Of a stretch of DNA of 64,000 nt, positions 20,448-29,961 are shown one piece after another. Position numbers and translations under genes: made by a program. The stretch spans positions 36,300 through 100,299 of the forward strand of contig NZ_JAQTOD010000005.1 in NCBI RefSeq assembly GCF_028713515.1, in the 5' to 3' direction. The notes under the pieces are model-generated. The model saw only the letters and a program-made list of their open reading frames with translations, was not told the DNA's origin and ran no database searches. Each line of letters begins with the position of its first letter. The first letter of the stretch is position 1. Origin of the DNA: Sulfurimonas sp. (GTDB taxonomy: Bacteria; Campylobacterota; Campylobacteria; Campylobacterales; Sulfurimonadaceae).

Positions 20448-21188
20448 ATGTCCCTGCAGGTAGGATGGAGATACTTTCCATTTAAGAGCGTTTTTATAGA
20501 TAGCGATGATTTGGTCTTTGGTGGTATAAAGATTGTCCAGCTATCAGATCTGCATTTGACAAAAAAAGTAAGTGTGAAGTACCTTGCAGAGTTAGTTGAA
20601 AAAATAAATGAGCTAGCTCCAGATTTGGTTGTTTTTACTGGCGACATATTGGAAGTCAATGCATTTGGTGTAAAAGAGCAGATAAAGACATTTGCTTCAC
20701 TAAACTCTCCAGCCTATTTTGTTAGCGGAAATCATGACATTATTTATGGGGTAAAACAGCTAGAGGAGCTCATGGAAAAAAGTGGCATCGTCTGTCTAGA
20801 TAATGCCATAGTTACAATAAAAATCAAAGAATTATTGATACAGTTGGTTGGACTAAGTGATAGATATGGTTTTTTAAAAGGTATAAAACGAATGCCAAAA
20901 GAGCTCTTTTTGAAATTAAATCCAGATTTACCGACAATTCTTTTAGCCCATCAACCAAAAGATGTAGAGCATATTGGCTCTTATCGTGTGGATATCCAAC
21001 TAAGCGGACACACACACGGCGGGCAATTTTTCCCATTTACCATTCTTGTAAAACTCTTTCAACCATATTTTTCAGGACTCTATAGATACAATAAAACAAA
21101 CCTATATGTTACAAATGGCTTGGGATATTGGGGTATAAAAGCTAGATATAAAGCCTCAAGTCAAATCCCAGTTTTAACGATTAATTAG
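20448..21188 (+). CDS. Calcineurin-like metallophosphoesterase
   Basis: IVQLSDLHLT, VVFTGDILE, VSGNHDIIYG, QLSGHTHGGQFFPF. Confidence 0.92.
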   Translation: MSLQVGWRYFPFKSVFIDSDDLVFGGIKIVQLSDLHLTKKVSVKYLAELVEKINELAPDLVVFTGDILEVNAFGVKEQIKTFASLNSPAYFVSGNHDIIYGVKQLEELMEKSGIVCLDNAIVTIKIKELLIQLVGLSDRYGFLKGIKRMPKELFLKLNPDLPTILLAHQPKDVEHIGSYRVDIQLSGHTHGGQFFPFTILVKLFQPYFSGLYRYNKTNLYVTNGLGYWGIKARYKASSQIPVLTIN

Positions 21189-21872: not shown

Positions 21873-22343
21873 ATGAAGAAGTTTCTACTAGCTTTATGTT
21901 TAAGTGTTATGGCTCTGAGCGCAGGAGAGCTTGTTGTTGGTTCGCCTCTTGGTGCTTTAAATGAATTTAAGTTTGAGACCCCACAAGGGCGAGAGATGAA
22001 GATCTCTAAAAAACCAAAACTTATTATTGTTGCTTTTGAAAAGGATACCGGAGCGCTTGTAAATGAATTTTTGGCAACGAAAGAGCCATTTTATCTTATG
22101 AAAAATGGCTCCACTTTTATAGCTGATATTCATGAGATGCCGACACTTGTTACAAATATGTTTGCTCTGCCAAAACTAAAAAAGTATAAGCATCTTATCT
22201 ATCTTCATTATGATGAGAAATTTCATAAGGTTGTTCCGAACAAAAAAGATAAAGTAACACTTCTTTTTATAGATGGAGATAAAATTAAGAGCATCTCATA
22301 TATCTCTACAAAACAAGAGTTGCAATCAGCTATTGAAAAATGA
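21873..22343 (+). CDS. Secreted protein, possibly thioredoxin-fold (no CxxC)
   Basis: Signal peptide MKKFLLALCLSVMALSAGE; body resembles redox-fold periplasmic proteins; start at 21873 preferred over 21828. Confidence 0.6.
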   Translation: MKKFLLALCLSVMALSAGELVVGSPLGALNEFKFETPQGREMKISKKPKLIIVAFEKDTGALVNEFLATKEPFYLMKNGSTFIADIHEMPTLVTNMFALPKLKKYKHLIYLHYDEKFHKVVPNKKDKVTLLFIDGDKIKSISYISTKQELQSAIEK

Positions 22344-23413
22344 TTTCACTAAAAGCACTTAGTAAAAATCCATTTAAGAGTCTGCTAATATTTTCATCCA
22401 TCACTATTGCGGTGATGGCAATTTTTCTTATTAGTTCCGTTTCTGCTGGCATAATCGGGATGTACTCGAAGATGATTAAAACTGATGGGGATATCATCAT
22501 AACCCAAAAGGGTATCTCAGACACTTTTTTCTCAAATGTAGATATCTCACTTCTGGATAAAGTAAATGGCATAAAAGGGGTATCTGGCAGTTATGCGATG
22601 ATTGTCGGAGCTTCTCCTATCGGGCATATTCCCATTGCTGGGATTTACGGAACCACTAAAAATCACTTTTCTCACTATAGGCTTGAGAGCGGAGAGTACC
22701 CAAAAGATGGCGAGGTAATTTTAGGAAAAGGGCTGTCTAAACATTTTGTCACTAAAAGCATAAATGTTGGAAGCAAGAACTTTAAAATCTCTGGCGTTTA
22801 CAATAGCGATATTGGTTTTGAAGATGGCGGTGTTGTCATGAATATAGAGGATGCTGGCTTGCTTTTTAACCGCTCTGCGTCGTTTATTTTGGTATCTGTA
22901 AAAGAGCCAAAAGAGATAGATGATTTAGTAAAGAGCATCTCATTGTTGAGTAGTGACATTGAGGCAAAAACAACAAAGAGCTTTATAAAAGAGTACAACC
23001 AGTTTAAGATTATTGAAAATTCATCTTTTGTTATCTCATTTTTAGCCTTCAGTATGGGGCTTATGGGGATTGCTTCGGTTATGAGTATGATAGTAAACTC
23101 TCGAAAAGAGGAGTTTGGTATTATGCGGGCACTCGGGAAAAGTAGATTTTTTATTATCAAGAATCTCTTTTTTGAGACTCTGATTATGAGTATTTCGGCA
23201 TATATTTTTGCTCTCATCCTTAGTCTAATAATATTGACAATGCTCCCACACATCGAGATGCTTCAAGGGTATGTAAATGGCACGCTCTCTATGCAAACGG
23301 CACTTTTAGTTCTTATTTCTACTCTTGTTATGGCACTTCTGGGCTCTTTGATTCCTGCGTGGATTGCTTCTAAGACAGACCCTATTTTGCTAATAAATCA
23401 AGGATGCTCATGA
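22340..23413 (+). CDS. FtsX/MacB-like ABC transporter permease
   Basis: Four-TM MacB topology with large periplasmic domain; NSRKEEFGIMRALGKSRFFIIKNLFFETLIMS. Confidence 0.9.
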   Translation: MISLKALSKNPFKSLLIFSSITIAVMAIFLISSVSAGIIGMYSKMIKTDGDIIITQKGISDTFFSNVDISLLDKVNGIKGVSGSYAMIVGASPIGHIPIAGIYGTTKNHFSHYRLESGEYPKDGEVILGKGLSKHFVTKSINVGSKNFKISGVYNSDIGFEDGGVVMNIEDAGLLFNRSASFILVSVKEPKEIDDLVKSISLLSSDIEAKTTKSFIKEYNQFKIIENSSFVISFLAFSMGLMGIASVMSMIVNSRKEEFGIMRALGKSRFFIIKNLFFETLIMSISAYIFALILSLIILTMLPHIEMLQGYVNGTLSMQTALLVLISTLVMALLGSLIPAWIASKTDPILLINQGCS

Positions 23414-24033
23414 TAAAAGTTTCCAATATTTCGCACTTTTATGGTTCTGAGCAAGTGCTTTATGATATATCTTTTGAAGTAAAAGATGGCGAGTTTGTTT
23501 TTTTGAGCGGAGATAGCGGAAGTGGCAAATCTACACTTCTCTCTATTCTCTCCACGCTTCTAAAGCCATCTCATGGAGAGCTTTTTTTGGATAACACTCC
23601 GGTTGGGCAAATTGCAGATATTGACAAATTTCGTCAAAACAAGATAGGTTTTGTTTTTCAGTTTCACTACCTCATAAACTATCTTAGCATTTATGAAAAT
23701 ATTGCCCTTGCGGCACTTGATGATAAAAAGCAAAACATAAATGCTCTTTTGAGTGATTTGGGTATTTTGGAACTCTCCGCCCGCTATCCAAATGAGATTT
23801 CAGGTGGTCAGAGGCAGAGAGTCGCTCTTGCAAGGGCACTTATTAATGAACCAAAAATTATCTTTGCTGATGAACCGACTGGGAGTTTGGATTCTAAAAA
23901 TAGCAAAATTGTGTATGAGCTTTTGGCAAGAGCTTTAAAGCAGGGCACGACCGTTGTTGTCGCTTCACATGATTTAAAAGTCCAAAAGTACGCAACTAAA
24001 ACAGTAAGGCTAATAGATGGAAAAATTCAATAA
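23404..24033 (+). CDS. LolD/MacB-like ABC transporter ATP-binding protein
   Basis: Walker A GDSGSGKST, signature ISGGQRQRVALARAL, Walker B IIFADEPTG. Confidence 0.95.
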   Translation: MLMIKVSNISHFYGSEQVLYDISFEVKDGEFVFLSGDSGSGKSTLLSILSTLLKPSHGELFLDNTPVGQIADIDKFRQNKIGFVFQFHYLINYLSIYENIALAALDDKKQNINALLSDLGILELSARYPNEISGGQRQRVALARALINEPKIIFADEPTGSLDSKNSKIVYELLARALKQGTTVVVASHDLKVQKYATKTVRLIDGKIQ

Positions 24034-25558
24034 GCTTATTCATGACATTGTTCCTATTTGGGCATGGATATTTTTAGCATCTGTTTTTGTTGGAGCGCTC
24101 TATTCGGCGCAACTCATCGGTTTTACTCTTTTTGACAAAACGCTTCTTGAGCCAACAACTGCTCGCTCTTTGCATATAACGCTTATGCTTTATGGTCCCG
24201 TTATGCTCGCTCTTTCGCTCCTTCCTTTTGCGCTTTTTAGCAGAGATGGTTTAAATCTTGATGGCGCTGTTTTGCCACTAAAAACCTACTTCTTTTTATG
24301 GCATCTATTTTTATTTATGGCTGTTGTATCAATTTTGCTTGGCGTGCAGAGAGGTTTGCCATTTTATGATTTTGCTTATGAGCTCAACTTTATCCTAGCA
24401 TCTTCTGGTATTTTTTATATTGTTGCAATATTTAAAATCATTAAGCAATACAAGGTAGTGCCACTTTGGGTAAAAGTCTCTAAAACACTGCTTTTTATAG
24501 CTCCAATTTCGCTTTTAGTTTTAATGAATCCAACTTTTGGTCAAGTTGAAAAAACACTATCAGGTCCTCATGGCGACAATACGCTGGGTATGAGTTTTAC
24601 GCTGATTCCTCTTTTTTATCTTCTTATAAAACTTCACACAAAAGAGAAATTTATTCCAAAATGGCATATATTTTGGGTTTTACCGCTGGTTGCTTATGCT
24701 GCATCTATCGCAACTCGTATTTTTAGAGGTGAGCTATCTTATGGTGAAGAGTGGGTTTATCAGTGGCTGACTTTTGCTTATTTGCCTCTGCTTGTGAAGT
24801 GGTGCATAGATGCCAAGCTTACTCTTAGGTCAGATGCTTATCTCATCATCTCTATCTGGGCGTTTTTATTTGTCATGATTCAAGGAAATATTCTCTTTAT
24901 CCCGGAGATTCGTTGGGTTTTTCACAGAAATGATCTGGTTGTGGCACATGCTCATGTCGCCATCGGAGTTGGTATCTTTTTTATGGCGCTTAGTCTGCTT
25001 AGTTACTTCTACAAACTGCCTCAAAAGTTTGCAAATTTTTGGTTTTTAGTTGTGGGAGTTATATTTTTCTCGCTAACAATTGCTGGTTTTAGTGAAGCGG
25101 GATATATAAATCTTGACATAGTTTTGATGCTTCAAATACGCTTTGTAGGCGGAGTTTTAGCTGTTGGAGGGCTTTTTTATTTTATAACTAAAGAGATGAA
25201 ACTACCAAAAGCAAACGCACTGACACTTTACCATCTAAACGGTTTTGCCTCTGATGGTTTGGGTGCCATGATTTTGTTTTTATCTGCGCCGTTTTTGTTT
25301 GATTTTTTAGGGTTTAAATTTGCTCAAGAGTATTATCTTGTCTTTGGTTTTATGGGTTTTGTCGGTATCTTGCATCTGGTTGGAGTCTATAGAGATGCAC
25401 ATCTTTTTGCATGGCTCACCTCAATAGCTCGTCTTATCACAGGAACTATTTTCTTATCTCTCTTTTATCTTCACACTATTGATATATTAGGTCTGCTTGT
25501 CGGTTTTTATGATGTATCTTACGCACTAATTTATATGCTTTTTAGAAATCGCCTATGA
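24017..25558 (+). CDS. Divergent heme-copper oxidase-superfamily subunit I-like protein (CuB His ligands not conserved; possible gNOR-type)
   Basis: 12+ TM helices; ARSLHITLMLYG (helix II low-spin heme His, H53) and VVAHAHVAIGVG (helix X pair, H311/H313) like CcoN/COX1; helix VI GDNTLG in place of CcoN GHNAVG (D187); no HH pair in helix VII. Confidence 0.75.
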   Translation: MEKFNKLIHDIVPIWAWIFLASVFVGALYSAQLIGFTLFDKTLLEPTTARSLHITLMLYGPVMLALSLLPFALFSRDGLNLDGAVLPLKTYFFLWHLFLFMAVVSILLGVQRGLPFYDFAYELNFILASSGIFYIVAIFKIIKQYKVVPLWVKVSKTLLFIAPISLLVLMNPTFGQVEKTLSGPHGDNTLGMSFTLIPLFYLLIKLHTKEKFIPKWHIFWVLPLVAYAASIATRIFRGELSYGEEWVYQWLTFAYLPLLVKWCIDAKLTLRSDAYLIISIWAFLFVMIQGNILFIPEIRWVFHRNDLVVAHAHVAIGVGIFFMALSLLSYFYKLPQKFANFWFLVVGVIFFSLTIAGFSEAGYINLDIVLMLQIRFVGGVLAVGGLFYFITKEMKLPKANALTLYHLNGFASDGLGAMILFLSAPFLFDFLGFKFAQEYYLVFGFMGFVGILHLVGVYRDAHLFAWLTSIARLITGTIFLSLFYLHTIDILGLLVGFYDVSYALIYMLFRNRL

Positions 25559-26463
25559 TATACTCGAGCGCTTTAGCACTTCTTTTAGGATTTGAGCTAA
25601 GCTACTATCTTCTAATCATTCAAACTGGAGTAGTGGCGCATTTTCACTCAGATATGCTGACTCTTTTTCCAATGTTTATGGGCGGTGTAGCAGGTACGAT
25701 TATGAGTGGTTTTTCTTGGGGGAAGATAACAAATCCAATTCATAAAATCATGCTGGCTCTTCTTCTGCAACTACTACTCTCTTTTTCATACCCAGAATAC
25801 AACCTTTTCACTCTTGTTTTGCTTGGTCTCTCTGTTGGAATGATGGCTCCTTTGGGGATTTATCTCTTTAAGTCACATCAGCAAAAAGAGCTCTTTTTTG
25901 CTCTGGCAATTGCTTATTCAACAGGTACATATCTTTTTAAGACTAGCGCAGACGGCAGAATTTGGATGGCGGTTTGCTTTACGCTAATTCCACTCTTTAG
26001 TGCGGTTGTGTTGCGAAAATATAGAGTTCAAACAGAAAATAAGAGAGAGTCATTTCCTATAGCTTCATACCTGCTTTTAATGTTATGGATACTTCTGGAT
26101 TCTAATCTTTTTGAGACGCTATTAAGACACAGCAACATAAATATATGGTCAAACTACACTTTTGTTATCATAGCTTTTCATATTTTAGGGCTTCTTGGTG
26201 GCTACTTTATAAAGATGCCAAATTACAAAAAACATATATTTATAGCTCTACTTTTTGTGGGGAGTTACTCTGTTTCATATCTTGAATTGCCTCTTGCGCT
26301 TGCAATGGTTTATCCGTTTGTTATCTCTTATTATAATGTTGTTGTTTTTACTACGCTGACAAAAGAGATGAGTTTAACGAAGCTCTCTTTTATGATGATT
26401 TTTGTTGGCTGGGTTGCATCTGGTGCTGGTTTAGCGATTGCCCTCGGTGGATTTTTCCATTGA
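25555..26463 (+). CDS. Multi-TM membrane protein coupled to the HCO-like subunit
   Basis: ATGA stop/start overlap with upstream gene; about ten hydrophobic helices, MFS-like in feel. Confidence 0.7.
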   Translation: MIYSSALALLLGFELSYYLLIIQTGVVAHFHSDMLTLFPMFMGGVAGTIMSGFSWGKITNPIHKIMLALLLQLLLSFSYPEYNLFTLVLLGLSVGMMAPLGIYLFKSHQQKELFFALAIAYSTGTYLFKTSADGRIWMAVCFTLIPLFSAVVLRKYRVQTENKRESFPIASYLLLMLWILLDSNLFETLLRHSNINIWSNYTFVIIAFHILGLLGGYFIKMPNYKKHIFIALLFVGSYSVSYLELPLALAMVYPFVISYYNVVVFTTLTKEMSLTKLSFMMIFVGWVASGAGLAIALGGFFH

Positions 26464-26490: not shown

Positions 26491-27009
26491 ATGAGATATT
26501 TAGTTTTAGCATTATTTTTGGTATTTCCGCTTCTGGCTGGAAATTTAGAACTTAAAAAAGGTTCAGTTGCGGCTCACACAGAGATGGCAATGGATAAGAC
26601 AATTGATCCATCGAGCAATTCTCTTCATGGAGAAGTTAGTATGGATGGCGAGGATGTAACATCACTAAAGGGAAAGTTTTGGGTTGATTTGACTCTTTTT
26701 AAGAGTGATAACAGCAAAAGAGATACAAATATGTACAAAGATATGGCAACTGACAAGTTTAAAGTAGCATCTTTTACAATCTCTTCAGTTGTTAAGAAAG
26801 GTGATGGCTACGCAATCAATGGAGTTATGAATTTTCATGGAGTAGAAAAACCAATGAGTGCTGATGCAAAAATCAGTGCAAAAGATGGCGGGCTAACTAT
26901 AGAAGCAAAGTCAAAAATGTTATTTAGCGATTATGGCATGAAGATGCCGTGTATGGTTTTTATGTGTGTTCGTGATGAAGTTGACTTAACAATTAAGGCC
27001 AATTTTTAG
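26491..27009 (+). CDS. YceI family periplasmic protein
   Basis: Signal peptide then LHGEVSMDGEDVTSLKGKFWVDLTLFKSDNSKRD...YAINGVMNFHGVEKPM. Confidence 0.9.
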   Translation: MRYLVLALFLVFPLLAGNLELKKGSVAAHTEMAMDKTIDPSSNSLHGEVSMDGEDVTSLKGKFWVDLTLFKSDNSKRDTNMYKDMATDKFKVASFTISSVVKKGDGYAINGVMNFHGVEKPMSADAKISAKDGGLTIEAKSKMLFSDYGMKMPCMVFMCVRDEVDLTIKANF

Positions 27010-27010
27010 C

Positions 27011-27032
27011 ATTAAGGGTGTGCACCCTTAAT
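27011..27032. terminator. Candidate bidirectional terminator hairpin between convergent genes
   Basis: ATTAAGGGTG-tg-CACCCTTAAT. Confidence 0.55.
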
Positions 27033-27786
27033 TATTAACCTCTCTCTTTTTTTCCATAAACAAAACCAAGATTAGCGTTATAAGCGTACCTACAAATACA
27101 ATGCTATATCCAGTTGGCCAGTCGTAATGGTAGGATAAAAAAAGTGCTAGTGAGATGAAAAACCATCCGTAAATCCAGCCAAAAAGCAGTGGATTAAGTC
27201 GCTTTTGCAAAAGAGCAACTAGTGCCGGGGCAATTAAGAGTGTAAACACAACTAAAACACCAGCTAGTTGTACAGATGAGGTTACCGTAACTGATAAAAG
27301 CGAGAAGAAGAATAGCTCTTTAAAGAATCCACTTAGCCTTGGATAGAGCGTGTAGTAGAGCAGGGCGACAGCGCCGTATGTCAGTGCTGACTTTGTAACT
27401 TCACCGCTACTAACAAATAAAATATCATTTGCCATCAACTGTTTAAACAGCTCATCCCCACCACTTCCAGAGCTAAGAACAATCATCACCGCAGATGCGC
27501 CAAGCGCATAAAGAAGGCCTATAAAAGCCTCAACATGGCGAGTGTTTCGATTGGCGTATGTAATGAGTAGTGCTCCAGTGAGTGCAAAAATAAGACTCAG
27601 CAAGACCTGTTTTTCTCCACTAAAAAAAGTAGCACTTACGGCGATTCCAACTGCTGAGAGCTGACCAACGGCTAAGTCTGTAAAGATAACTCCTCTTTTT
27701 ATTATCTCAAGCCCAAAAATGGTATGAATTCCAACAAGTAAAAACGCTAAGCCTAGTGCAGGGAGTAGGATTTCTATGGTTGACAT
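27028..27786 (-). CDS. Metal (Zn/Mn) ABC transporter permease, ZnuB-like
   Basis: LALGLAFLLVGIHTIFGLEIIKRGVIFTDLAVGQLSAVGIAVS; ABC-3 family. Confidence 0.88.
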   Translation of the reverse strand: MSTIEILLPALGLAFLLVGIHTIFGLEIIKRGVIFTDLAVGQLSAVGIAVSATFFSGEKQVLLSLIFALTGALLITYANRNTRHVEAFIGLLYALGASAVMIVLSSGSGGDELFKQLMANDILFVSSGEVTKSALTYGAVALLYYTLYPRLSGFFKELFFFSLLSVTVTSSVQLAGVLVVFTLLIAPALVALLQKRLNPLLFGWIYGWFFISLALFLSYHYDWPTGYSIVFVGTLITLILVLFMEKKREVNN

Positions 27787-28658
27787 ATTTTTGCAACAAT
27801 CGTATCAAATAGCGCTTCAAGTGATGCTGTATTTGGCAATGCTCCAACATCATGAGGCAGGATAACCGCTTTCGCGCCTGACTTTTCAGCTATAAATTGT
27901 GCTGATTTTGTCTCATGATAATCATCTTGGATGATTAGTTTTATCTTCTCATTTCTAATCAATCCGATTAGCTCCATTGAGTGTTTAGAGTTTGGCGATA
28001 TTCCTGGAAGTGGCTCAATAGTAGAGGCTGTGCTTATGGAGTAGCGATTTAAAAAATAGCTGAAGAGTTCATGATACTGCACTAGTTTACTGTTTCTGCA
28101 AGACCCCATTTTACTATCCCATTGTGCTAGTTTTTCGCCCCAGTGCAGAGCAAATGCGTCATAATTTGCATGATAACTATTTTTATTTGCAGAATCTAAG
28201 TTTGAGAGTTTTAGCATAATCACTTTTGCTAAAGTTAGCATATTGTGAGGGTCTAGCGAGTAGTGTGGGTTTCCATCCCCATGAACATCGCCTCCAGCGC
28301 GAGATAAGTTTGTTGGTTTATCAATTAGTTTGATATATTTTGAGAGATCAAGATAACCTGATGCTCCTTGAATAATTTTAGGGTTGTTTGACTGCGCTAA
28401 AAGTGGTGGAATCCAACCAATCTCAAGGTCGCCACCATTTAAAATCAGCAAATCGCTATTTCGTAAAATTCCAATATATGAAGGTCTAGGAGTCACAAAA
28501 TGAGGATCAGATGAGGCTTGAGCGATAACGCTAACTTCCACTTTGTCTTTAGCGATTGTTTTTACTAGCTCCCCAATATATGGATAAGCCGCAGTTACAT
28601 GAACTGAAGCAAAGATAGGAAGTGAGCAAAATAGGGCTATTATAATTTTTTTCATCAT
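27774..28658 (-). CDS. Metal ABC transporter substrate-binding protein, ZnuA-like
   Basis: HVTAAYPYIGELVKTIAKDKVEVSVIAQASSDPHFVTPRPSYIG; HYSLDPHNM. Start likely at 28658 (MKKIIIALFCSLPIFA signal peptide). Confidence 0.88.
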   Translation of the reverse strand: MMKKIIIALFCSLPIFASVHVTAAYPYIGELVKTIAKDKVEVSVIAQASSDPHFVTPRPSYIGILRNSDLLILNGGDLEIGWIPPLLAQSNNPKIIQGASGYLDLSKYIKLIDKPTNLSRAGGDVHGDGNPHYSLDPHNMLTLAKVIMLKLSNLDSANKNSYHANYDAFALHWGEKLAQWDSKMGSCRNSKLVQYHELFSYFLNRYSISTASTIEPLPGISPNSKHSMELIGLIRNEKIKLIIQDDYHETKSAQFIAEKSGAKAVILPHDVGALPNTASLEALFDTIVAKICQP

Positions 28659-28665
28659 GCTCTCC

Positions 28666-29961
28666 TTAAAAAGAGTGAGCGCCGTGAGCACCTAGCTCTA
28701 GCGTGTAGTTAAGTATTATTTCGTTTATTGTTTTTGCTTCACCGTCAATAAATTTAGAGTCATCTTTGTTATATTGCAGGCGAAATCTTGAGAATTCAAA
28801 CGGTTTGTAGTCCAGTTTTATGCTTGAACGATGAAGGTTATTTACACTATCAGCGGAAAGCTCGGCGTGATTTTTGGTTATATCATCGTATCGAATACCA
28901 GTTGCCCAATTTCCATTAATTTTATAGAGTAGCTCGCTGTAATATCCTGCTTGTTTTTTAGTTGTTATAGCAACATCCATATCTCTTTGTATCCACTCAT
29001 TTTGCCAAATCAGAGAACTTTGGTTGCCAAGTGGGTACTCTAAAGTAAAATCTGCACCATAAATATTTGTTTGTCCAAAGTTTGTGAAGCTATCTGGGAT
29101 AGGATCTCCAAGTCCATCGAGATTTTGAATCTCTGATTTTCCATTCGCATAACTAACCCCTGCTAGAAGTGTCAAATCTTTTATGCTCGTGCTAGTTTTC
29201 AGATATCCAACCGCAGTTGAAGCTGACTCTTTTGCACTAAATCCTTGATTTGGATTACCATTAAAGAGTTCAAACCCTGCCATAAGATAAAATGGTGTTG
29301 GTGCAACCCATTGAAGTTGTGCTCCCTCGCCACCTAAACCATCAAGACCAAAAAGAGTGTTGTTAATCAGCTCTTGATCTTCAAAATTCCACGCATGATG
29401 ATGCTTCTCGTTTGCTCTACCGAATGCACTTTTAAATTTACCGGCTTTAACTCTAAGTCCATAATCCAGAGCGCGAGTAACAAAGTAAGCCTCTTCAACC
29501 TCTAGCGTTCCATCTCCGTGGATATGAAAAATAGCACTTGCATTAAAGTACGGATCAACAGTGGCGCCCATAGCAACTTCCGCGTAGTTAAAGTTAAATC
29601 CATCTTTTGCATTGTTTTGAATCTCCATATCCCCTTCATCTACAAATCCAGGGATTGAAGTCTTTTTTGCATACTGTGTGTTACTTTTGTTTCTGGATGT
29701 GTATCCACCATTTAAGATTAAAGAGATATCTGGAAGTAGAGTAGCAACCGGTACGCTATGCGTCTCTTGTGCCATGCTCTCAAGCGTCTCCTCTTTTTCT
29801 TCGACTACAGGCTTAGTTGCCTCTAATGTTTGAATGCGTTTTTGCATGTTTGATAGCTGTTGTTGTAACTGTGCCATATCTTTTTTAAGCTGCTCGACTT
29901 CATTGTTTTGCGCAAACAGGGCAGTTGCACATACAAGCGAGAGCAATGATTTTTTAATCAT
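28666..29961 (-). CDS. Outer-membrane porin-like protein with N-terminal coiled coil
   Basis: Signal peptide, EVEQLKKDMAQLQQQLSNMQKRIQTLEA coiled coil, then beta-barrel-like alternation with C-terminal F. Confidence 0.8.
   Translation of the reverse strand: MIKKSLLSLVCATALFAQNNEVEQLKKDMAQLQQQLSNMQKRIQTLEATKPVVEEKEETLESMAQETHSVPVATLLPDISLILNGGYTSRNKSNTQYAKKTSIPGFVDEGDMEIQNNAKDGFNFNYAEVAMGATVDPYFNASAIFHIHGDGTLEVEEAYFVTRALDYGLRVKAGKFKSAFGRANEKHHHAWNFEDQELINNTLFGLDGLGGEGAQLQWVAPTPFYLMAGFELFNGNPNQGFSAKESASTAVGYLKTSTSIKDLTLLAGVSYANGKSEIQNLDGLGDPIPDSFTNFGQTNIYGADFTLEYPLGNQSSLIWQNEWIQRDMDVAITTKKQAGYYSELLYKINGNWATGIRYDDITKNHAELSADSVNNLHRSSIKLDYKPFEFSRFRLQYNKDDSKFIDGEAKTINEIILNYTLELGAHGAHSF

Follow-up and report, generated by a model that had tools for sequence, protein, structure and literature searches.

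The window, a stretch of 64,000 nucleotides from Sulfurimonas sp., contains a gene for a divergent member of the heme-copper oxidase (HCO) superfamily which, judged from its sequence, conserves the residues for two hemes and lacks the histidine triad of the CuB/FeB site. Because this triad has been lost and the gene is part of a fixed cluster with envelope-transport and lipid-binding genes, the protein probably has a role other than O2 or NO respiration. The gene (P0001) is located at positions 24017-25558 on the forward strand, exactly where an earlier note on this DNA had placed it, and codes for 513 residues from an ATG start; H53, H185, D187, H311 and H313 had also been correctly positioned there. 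The protein consists of a 12-helix HCO core (residues 1-395), followed by four extra C-terminal transmembrane helices (approximately residues 400-513).

Sequence searches barely recognize the protein. Its score against Pfam COX1 is 23.3 bits, below the curated cut-off of 34.8, with 20 of 24 family members matching this model at E <= 0.01. Searches of NCBIfam and, with the single sequence, of PDB gave no match, and a PDB profile search with the 24-member family alignment returned cbb3 subunit I as the sole match (E 4e-4). Of the helices in the AlphaFold2 model (pLDDT 84, pTM 0.82), 12 correspond to those of the HCO core and four more lie at residues 401-508. Foldseek found cbb3 subunit I as the best match to this model (E 4e-7, probability 1.0, TM-score 0.58, rmsd about 6-7 Å) and cNOR as the second-best. 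The HCO-type fold that had been suggested from the sequence is thus confirmed, and it is well supported that P0001 is a divergent HCO-superfamily protein with a fold closest to that of cbb3 subunit I. As the TM-score is modest and the rmsd is 6-7 Å, the two proteins share a fold but are not closely related. In a phylogenetic tree the family forms a separate, long-branched clade with an SH-aLRT support of 96, which covers the clade itself and not its exact sister group, long branches meeting in this tree; one CcoN sequence is an outlier with an extreme branch. The C-terminal four-helix extension (25199-25555, forward strand) lies beyond the 12-helix core and carries the invariant residues Y405, D413, H453, R472 and D499. 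It has no Pfam family and no relative among the solved structures in PDB, and there is no second copy of it in the same genome.

The residues expected at the two heme sites are strictly conserved. We aligned 98 family members (41-76% identity) and found six invariant histidines (H53, H185, H303, H311, H313 and H453, the latter in all 97 readable rows), with D187, N188, R234, E245 and D413 likewise invariant. The invariance of H53, H185, D187, H311 and H313 in 98 members indicates real constraints rather than chance. When compared by HHalign with the CcoN family from the same genome, H53 and H311/H313 fall on the heme ligands, as the earlier note had proposed. H53, in helix II (codon 24173-24175, forward strand), would be a low-spin heme ligand and is present in 98/98 sequences. 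Codons 303-313 (24923-24955, forward strand; H-RND-LVVA-H-A-H) include H311, the putative high-spin heme ligand, and H313, the putative low-spin heme ligand of helix X. They also include H303, which aligns with the CcoN histidine located eight residues ahead of the HxH pair, the propionate/Mg-site position of HCOs. R375 aligns with the arginine preceding helix XII in CcoN. In these alignments, conservation thus covers the heme-propionate residues H303 and R375 as well as the axial ligands H53, H311 and H313, and the protein is predicted to bind two hemes.

The situation differs at the CuB site. The codons of H185-G186-D187 (24569-24577, forward strand; GPHGDNTLG) mark the start of helix VI, and HHalign places D187 at the position of the helix VI CuB histidine (GHNAV in CcoN, GDNTL in P0001). 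Aspartate is found at this position in all 98 family members. When HCOs of all types were aligned together with MAFFT, helix VI was misplaced, so that the mapping of D187 rests on HHalign and on the GHN/GDN motif; the confidence of the AlphaFold2 model is below 50 at residues 177-184, directly before H185. The helix VII His-His pair is aligned by HHalign with codons 238-239 (G-E; 24728-24733, forward strand), which are variable. A single histidine occurs at position 238 in 23/98 and at position 239 in 5/98 members, perhaps because an ancestral His-His pair has decayed, and the pair itself occurs in none of the 98. MAFFT shifts the register to R234/I235, and neither register contains a His-His pair. 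From these comparisons, the CuB/FeB triad of the helix VI histidine and the helix VII pair is absent from the family. This agrees with what had been read from the single sequence, namely an aspartate in helix VI with H185 nearby and no His-His pair. The acidic residues in the segment GELSYGEEW had also been pointed out. They are indeed present, but mean less than had been supposed: E239 and E244 vary, and the invariant E245-W246 pairs with a conserved Asp-Trp of cbb3 oxidases (PDW) and is thus probably not a new ligand.

The CuB/FeB site is usually regarded as what defines heme-copper oxidases and NO reductases. A family with both heme sites and without the second metal would have kept the HCO fold for a task other than reducing O2 or NO. 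Genome surveys of bacteria that cycle sulfur and nitrogen should take care not to count such genes among the terminal oxidases or NO reductases. Carriers belong to a widespread group, the sulfur- and microaerophilic Campylobacterota, and, given the fixed module, the function can be tested in carriers available in culture (Sulfurospirillum, Malaciobacter). In the literature that we searched, neither CuB-free HCO homologues nor this gene cluster are described.

The genome codes for three further HCOs: a cbb3 subunit CcoN (L001), NorB together with NorC (L002), and L003. With CcoN, which is its best match by fold, PDB profile search and HHalign, P0001 shares the RxLH of helix II, the H(8)HxH arrangement of helix X, the arginine before helix XII and the GHN/GDN motif. 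It differs from cbb3 oxidases in having no CuB triad, four extra C-terminal helices and a COX1 score below the cut-off, and in having no CcoO/CcoP partners, as no such cytochrome c genes occur in its cluster. With cNOR (NorB) it has in common the HCO fold and two b-type heme sites, which are predicted in P0001, but it lacks HLWVE, His-His and a NorC partner, and the canonical NorBC is encoded separately in the genome. Another family of NorB-like proteins, about 460 residues long (L158-L162; motifs HLWVEG and GHHFFYIG), was noticed in several relatives (G036, G032, G012, G031 and G009).

For gNOR, an active-site aspartate has been described, and the enzyme has been found in Sulfurimonas, Sulfurovum and Persephonella; its second active-site residue, at +4 of helix VI, is listed as D (PMC8756737). 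Membership in this family had been considered for P0001 in the earlier note, and P0001 does share the helix VI replacement of His by Asp and the bacterial group. However, it is L003 (contig C1, 167345-168784), only 25% identical to P0001 over 130 residues, that is likely to be gNOR, its sequence matching the published description. L003 has the helix VI motif WWGLDLIADG with a second aspartate at +4, retains His-His, reaches a full COX1 score (164 bits) and is adjacent to a gene for a 215-residue protein. This neighbour looks COX2-like by eye and has no Pfam match. P0001 has an invariant glycine at +4 (G191, 98/98) and no His-His, and it is flanked by ABC and MFS-fold genes with no adjacent COX2-like subunit. 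We therefore reject membership of P0001 in gNOR.

The HCO-like gene belongs to a fixed, conserved gene module. In the window, all on the forward strand, this begins with a periplasmic protein of 156 residues without cysteines that is thioredoxin-like by eye (21873-22343). It is followed by an FtsX/MacB-type ABC permease (357 residues, 22340-23413), which overlaps both of its neighbours, and by a LolD/FtsE-like ABC ATPase (209 residues, 23404-24033), the end of which extends 17 nt into the HCO-like gene. The HCO-like stop codon is in turn overlapped by the gene for a compact MFS-fold membrane protein (302 residues, 25555-26463), so that each gene from the thioredoxin-like to the MFS-fold protein overlaps with the next; a YceI-family periplasmic lipocalin comes after it (172 residues, 26491-27009). 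Of the 50 loci that are flanked by long sequence on either side, all have the MFS-fold and FtsX genes, 49 have the ATPase, 48 have YceI and 39 have the thioredoxin-like protein. A metallophosphoesterase (246 residues, 20448-21188, forward strand) is a frequent neighbour, which precedes the module in Sulfurimonas and follows it in Arcobacter and Sulfurospirillum. The FtsX permease and LolD-like ATPase resemble LolCDE/MacB-type transporters, but the best NCBIfam models are all far below cut-off and the partner is an HCO-like protein.

Several features of individual module members and loci were noted. The MFS fold is evident from an AlphaFold2 model with a pLDDT of 92.5; this family is unusually short, has no Pfam entry and shows invariant D182, E187, R191 and H209 in a 32-member alignment. 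The cysteine-less thioredoxin-like protein has no Pfam family and no PDB relative, and has conserved F55-E-K57 and F97-A-L-P100 segments. In a Campylobacterales MAG (L041, 9500-13400), four extra ORFs separate the HCO-like and MFS-fold genes, and in three loci (L078, L098, L099) the module is rearranged, with the MFS-fold and YceI genes ahead of FtsX, ATPase and HCO-like gene. An apparent fusion in L025 (an open frame of 748 residues) proved to be merely an out-of-frame read of an ABC gene.

We scanned 84,980 species genomes for the locus with two short peptide patterns, which distant relatives elsewhere could escape. Among the 80 matches listed (22 weaker ones apart), all named organisms are Campylobacterota; two MAGs titled "Proteobacteria bacterium" and "bacterium" have 43-50% identity with P0001. 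Within a sample of the phylum, the gene occurs in 60 of 397 genomes and 18 of 68 genera, and no plasmid copies were found. It is dispensable in some lineages, as indicated by two cases of loss. In the complete genome G032 (C1:2376633-2376890, L031), residues 67-489 are lost in frame, leaving 86 residues with the rest of the operon kept, and in G473 (C1:1208658-1210193) the gene is broken by several stops. A COX1 search of 60 relatives showed that every carrier among them has another HCO that scores as a cbb3-type oxidase, so that O2 reduction does not need P0001.

As a tentative reading, to which we would give somewhat less than an even chance, we propose that P0001 is a b-type electron conduit with two hemes and no CuB, which would serve to maintain the envelope or quinones. 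Having lost the CuB site, it would be an electron carrier in the inner membrane and would act within an envelope module made up of the FtsX/LolD-type ABC transporter, the MFS-fold protein, the cysteine-less thioredoxin-like protein and the YceI lipocalin. YceI would carry a lipid or quinone substrate that faces the periplasm, and P0001 would pass electrons between this substrate and the menaquinol pool, much as has been suggested for the lipocalin BcnA and its cytochrome b561 partner LcoA. The fold, the conserved heme ligands, the missing CuB triad and the fixed module are what the data show; we infer that hemes are bound, which way the electrons run, what the substrate is, and any physical link of the protein to the ABC transporter. 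YceI lipocalins bind isoprenoid quinones, pair with di-heme cytochrome b561 and limit lipid peroxidation; LcoA-BcnA shields membranes from lipid peroxyl radicals, its quinone-recycling step being a proposal (PMC9113575). We propose the conduit because this pair is the closest functional parallel: in both systems a YceI lipocalin is encoded together with a two-heme b-type membrane protein, predicted as such in the case of P0001, and on these two features the analogy rests. The systems differ in that the HCO and b561 folds are unrelated and in that ABC and MFS transport genes accompany P0001. Elsewhere the genome has two more YceI genes, and also two b-type cytochromes of family PF01292, so that the function could be redundant. 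The invariant H185 and D187 suggest that the distal pocket may keep a specific job, which counts against a simple conduit. A more elaborate version, possible but doubtful, is that an envelope machine of ABC, MFS and lipocalin components has taken up the oxidase fold, its copper site removed, as redox subunit. Electrons from the quinone pool would then control or drive the handling of lipids or quinones across the membrane, and a new site formed by H185/D187 might occupy the former CuB pocket.

The earlier note had mentioned an electron conduit as an alternative, and we favour this part of it, with a mechanism that is conjectural; its altered metal site with NO reductase activity fares less well. 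A non-canonical reductase of NO or another small molecule, with a new second metal bound by H185, D187 and neighbouring residues, would explain why both are invariant in 98/98 sequences, and the helix VI change from His to Asp also occurs in the gNOR-like L003 of the same genome. However, no His-His is left, helix VI lacks an acidic residue at +4, the genome already encodes NorBC along with a gNOR-like enzyme, and most relatives with NorB-type genes have no P0001 homologue. In addition, NosZ is not enriched in carriers (24 of 60 versus 103 of 337 non-carriers; Fisher p=0.18, uncorrected for phylogeny), which argues against a role in denitrification, and three carriers (G002, G108, G109) have one other HCO only, which is cbb3-type by score and leaves them without any NO reductase. 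We thus consider such a reductase improbable. Only a little more credible, and still unlikely, is a gas-binding sensor or regulator, in which the high-spin heme on H311 would bind NO, CO or O2 in an open distal pocket and gate the ABC transporter or a two-component system. This accords with the retained high-spin ligand and the lost CuB, and in L088, a locus of the Arcobacter type, the module is followed by genes for a response regulator and a sensor kinase, but such two-component genes do not regularly accompany the cluster, a low-spin heme would be unnecessary for sensing, and we know of no HCO-fold sensor.

That the HCO fold provides just membrane architecture for the ABC/MFS system, as a transport or scaffold subunit with the hemes as structural relics, is quite improbable. 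The transporter neighbourhood is fixed, and the G032 operon persists with the HCO-like gene mostly deleted in frame, the G473 copy being broken; nevertheless, the heme ligands and propionate residues are invariant in 98 sequences, unlike a relic site. Least probable of all, and by our estimate very improbable, is a factor that helps to assemble cbb3 oxidase or NO reductase or supplies them with copper or heme. CcoN is the closest relative, and the next gene has an MFS fold, as has the cbb3 copper importer CcoA. The family is, however, restricted to 60 of the 397 phylum genomes, cbb3 being far more widespread among relatives, and P0001 is not beside ccoNOQP in its genome, where the cco genes are located at 351 kb on contig C2.

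Further along the window, on the reverse strand (27028-29961), there are genes for an ABC-3-type permease, a ZnuA-like metal-binding protein and a porin-like protein, assigned by eye, which represent a probable zinc or manganese uptake operon.
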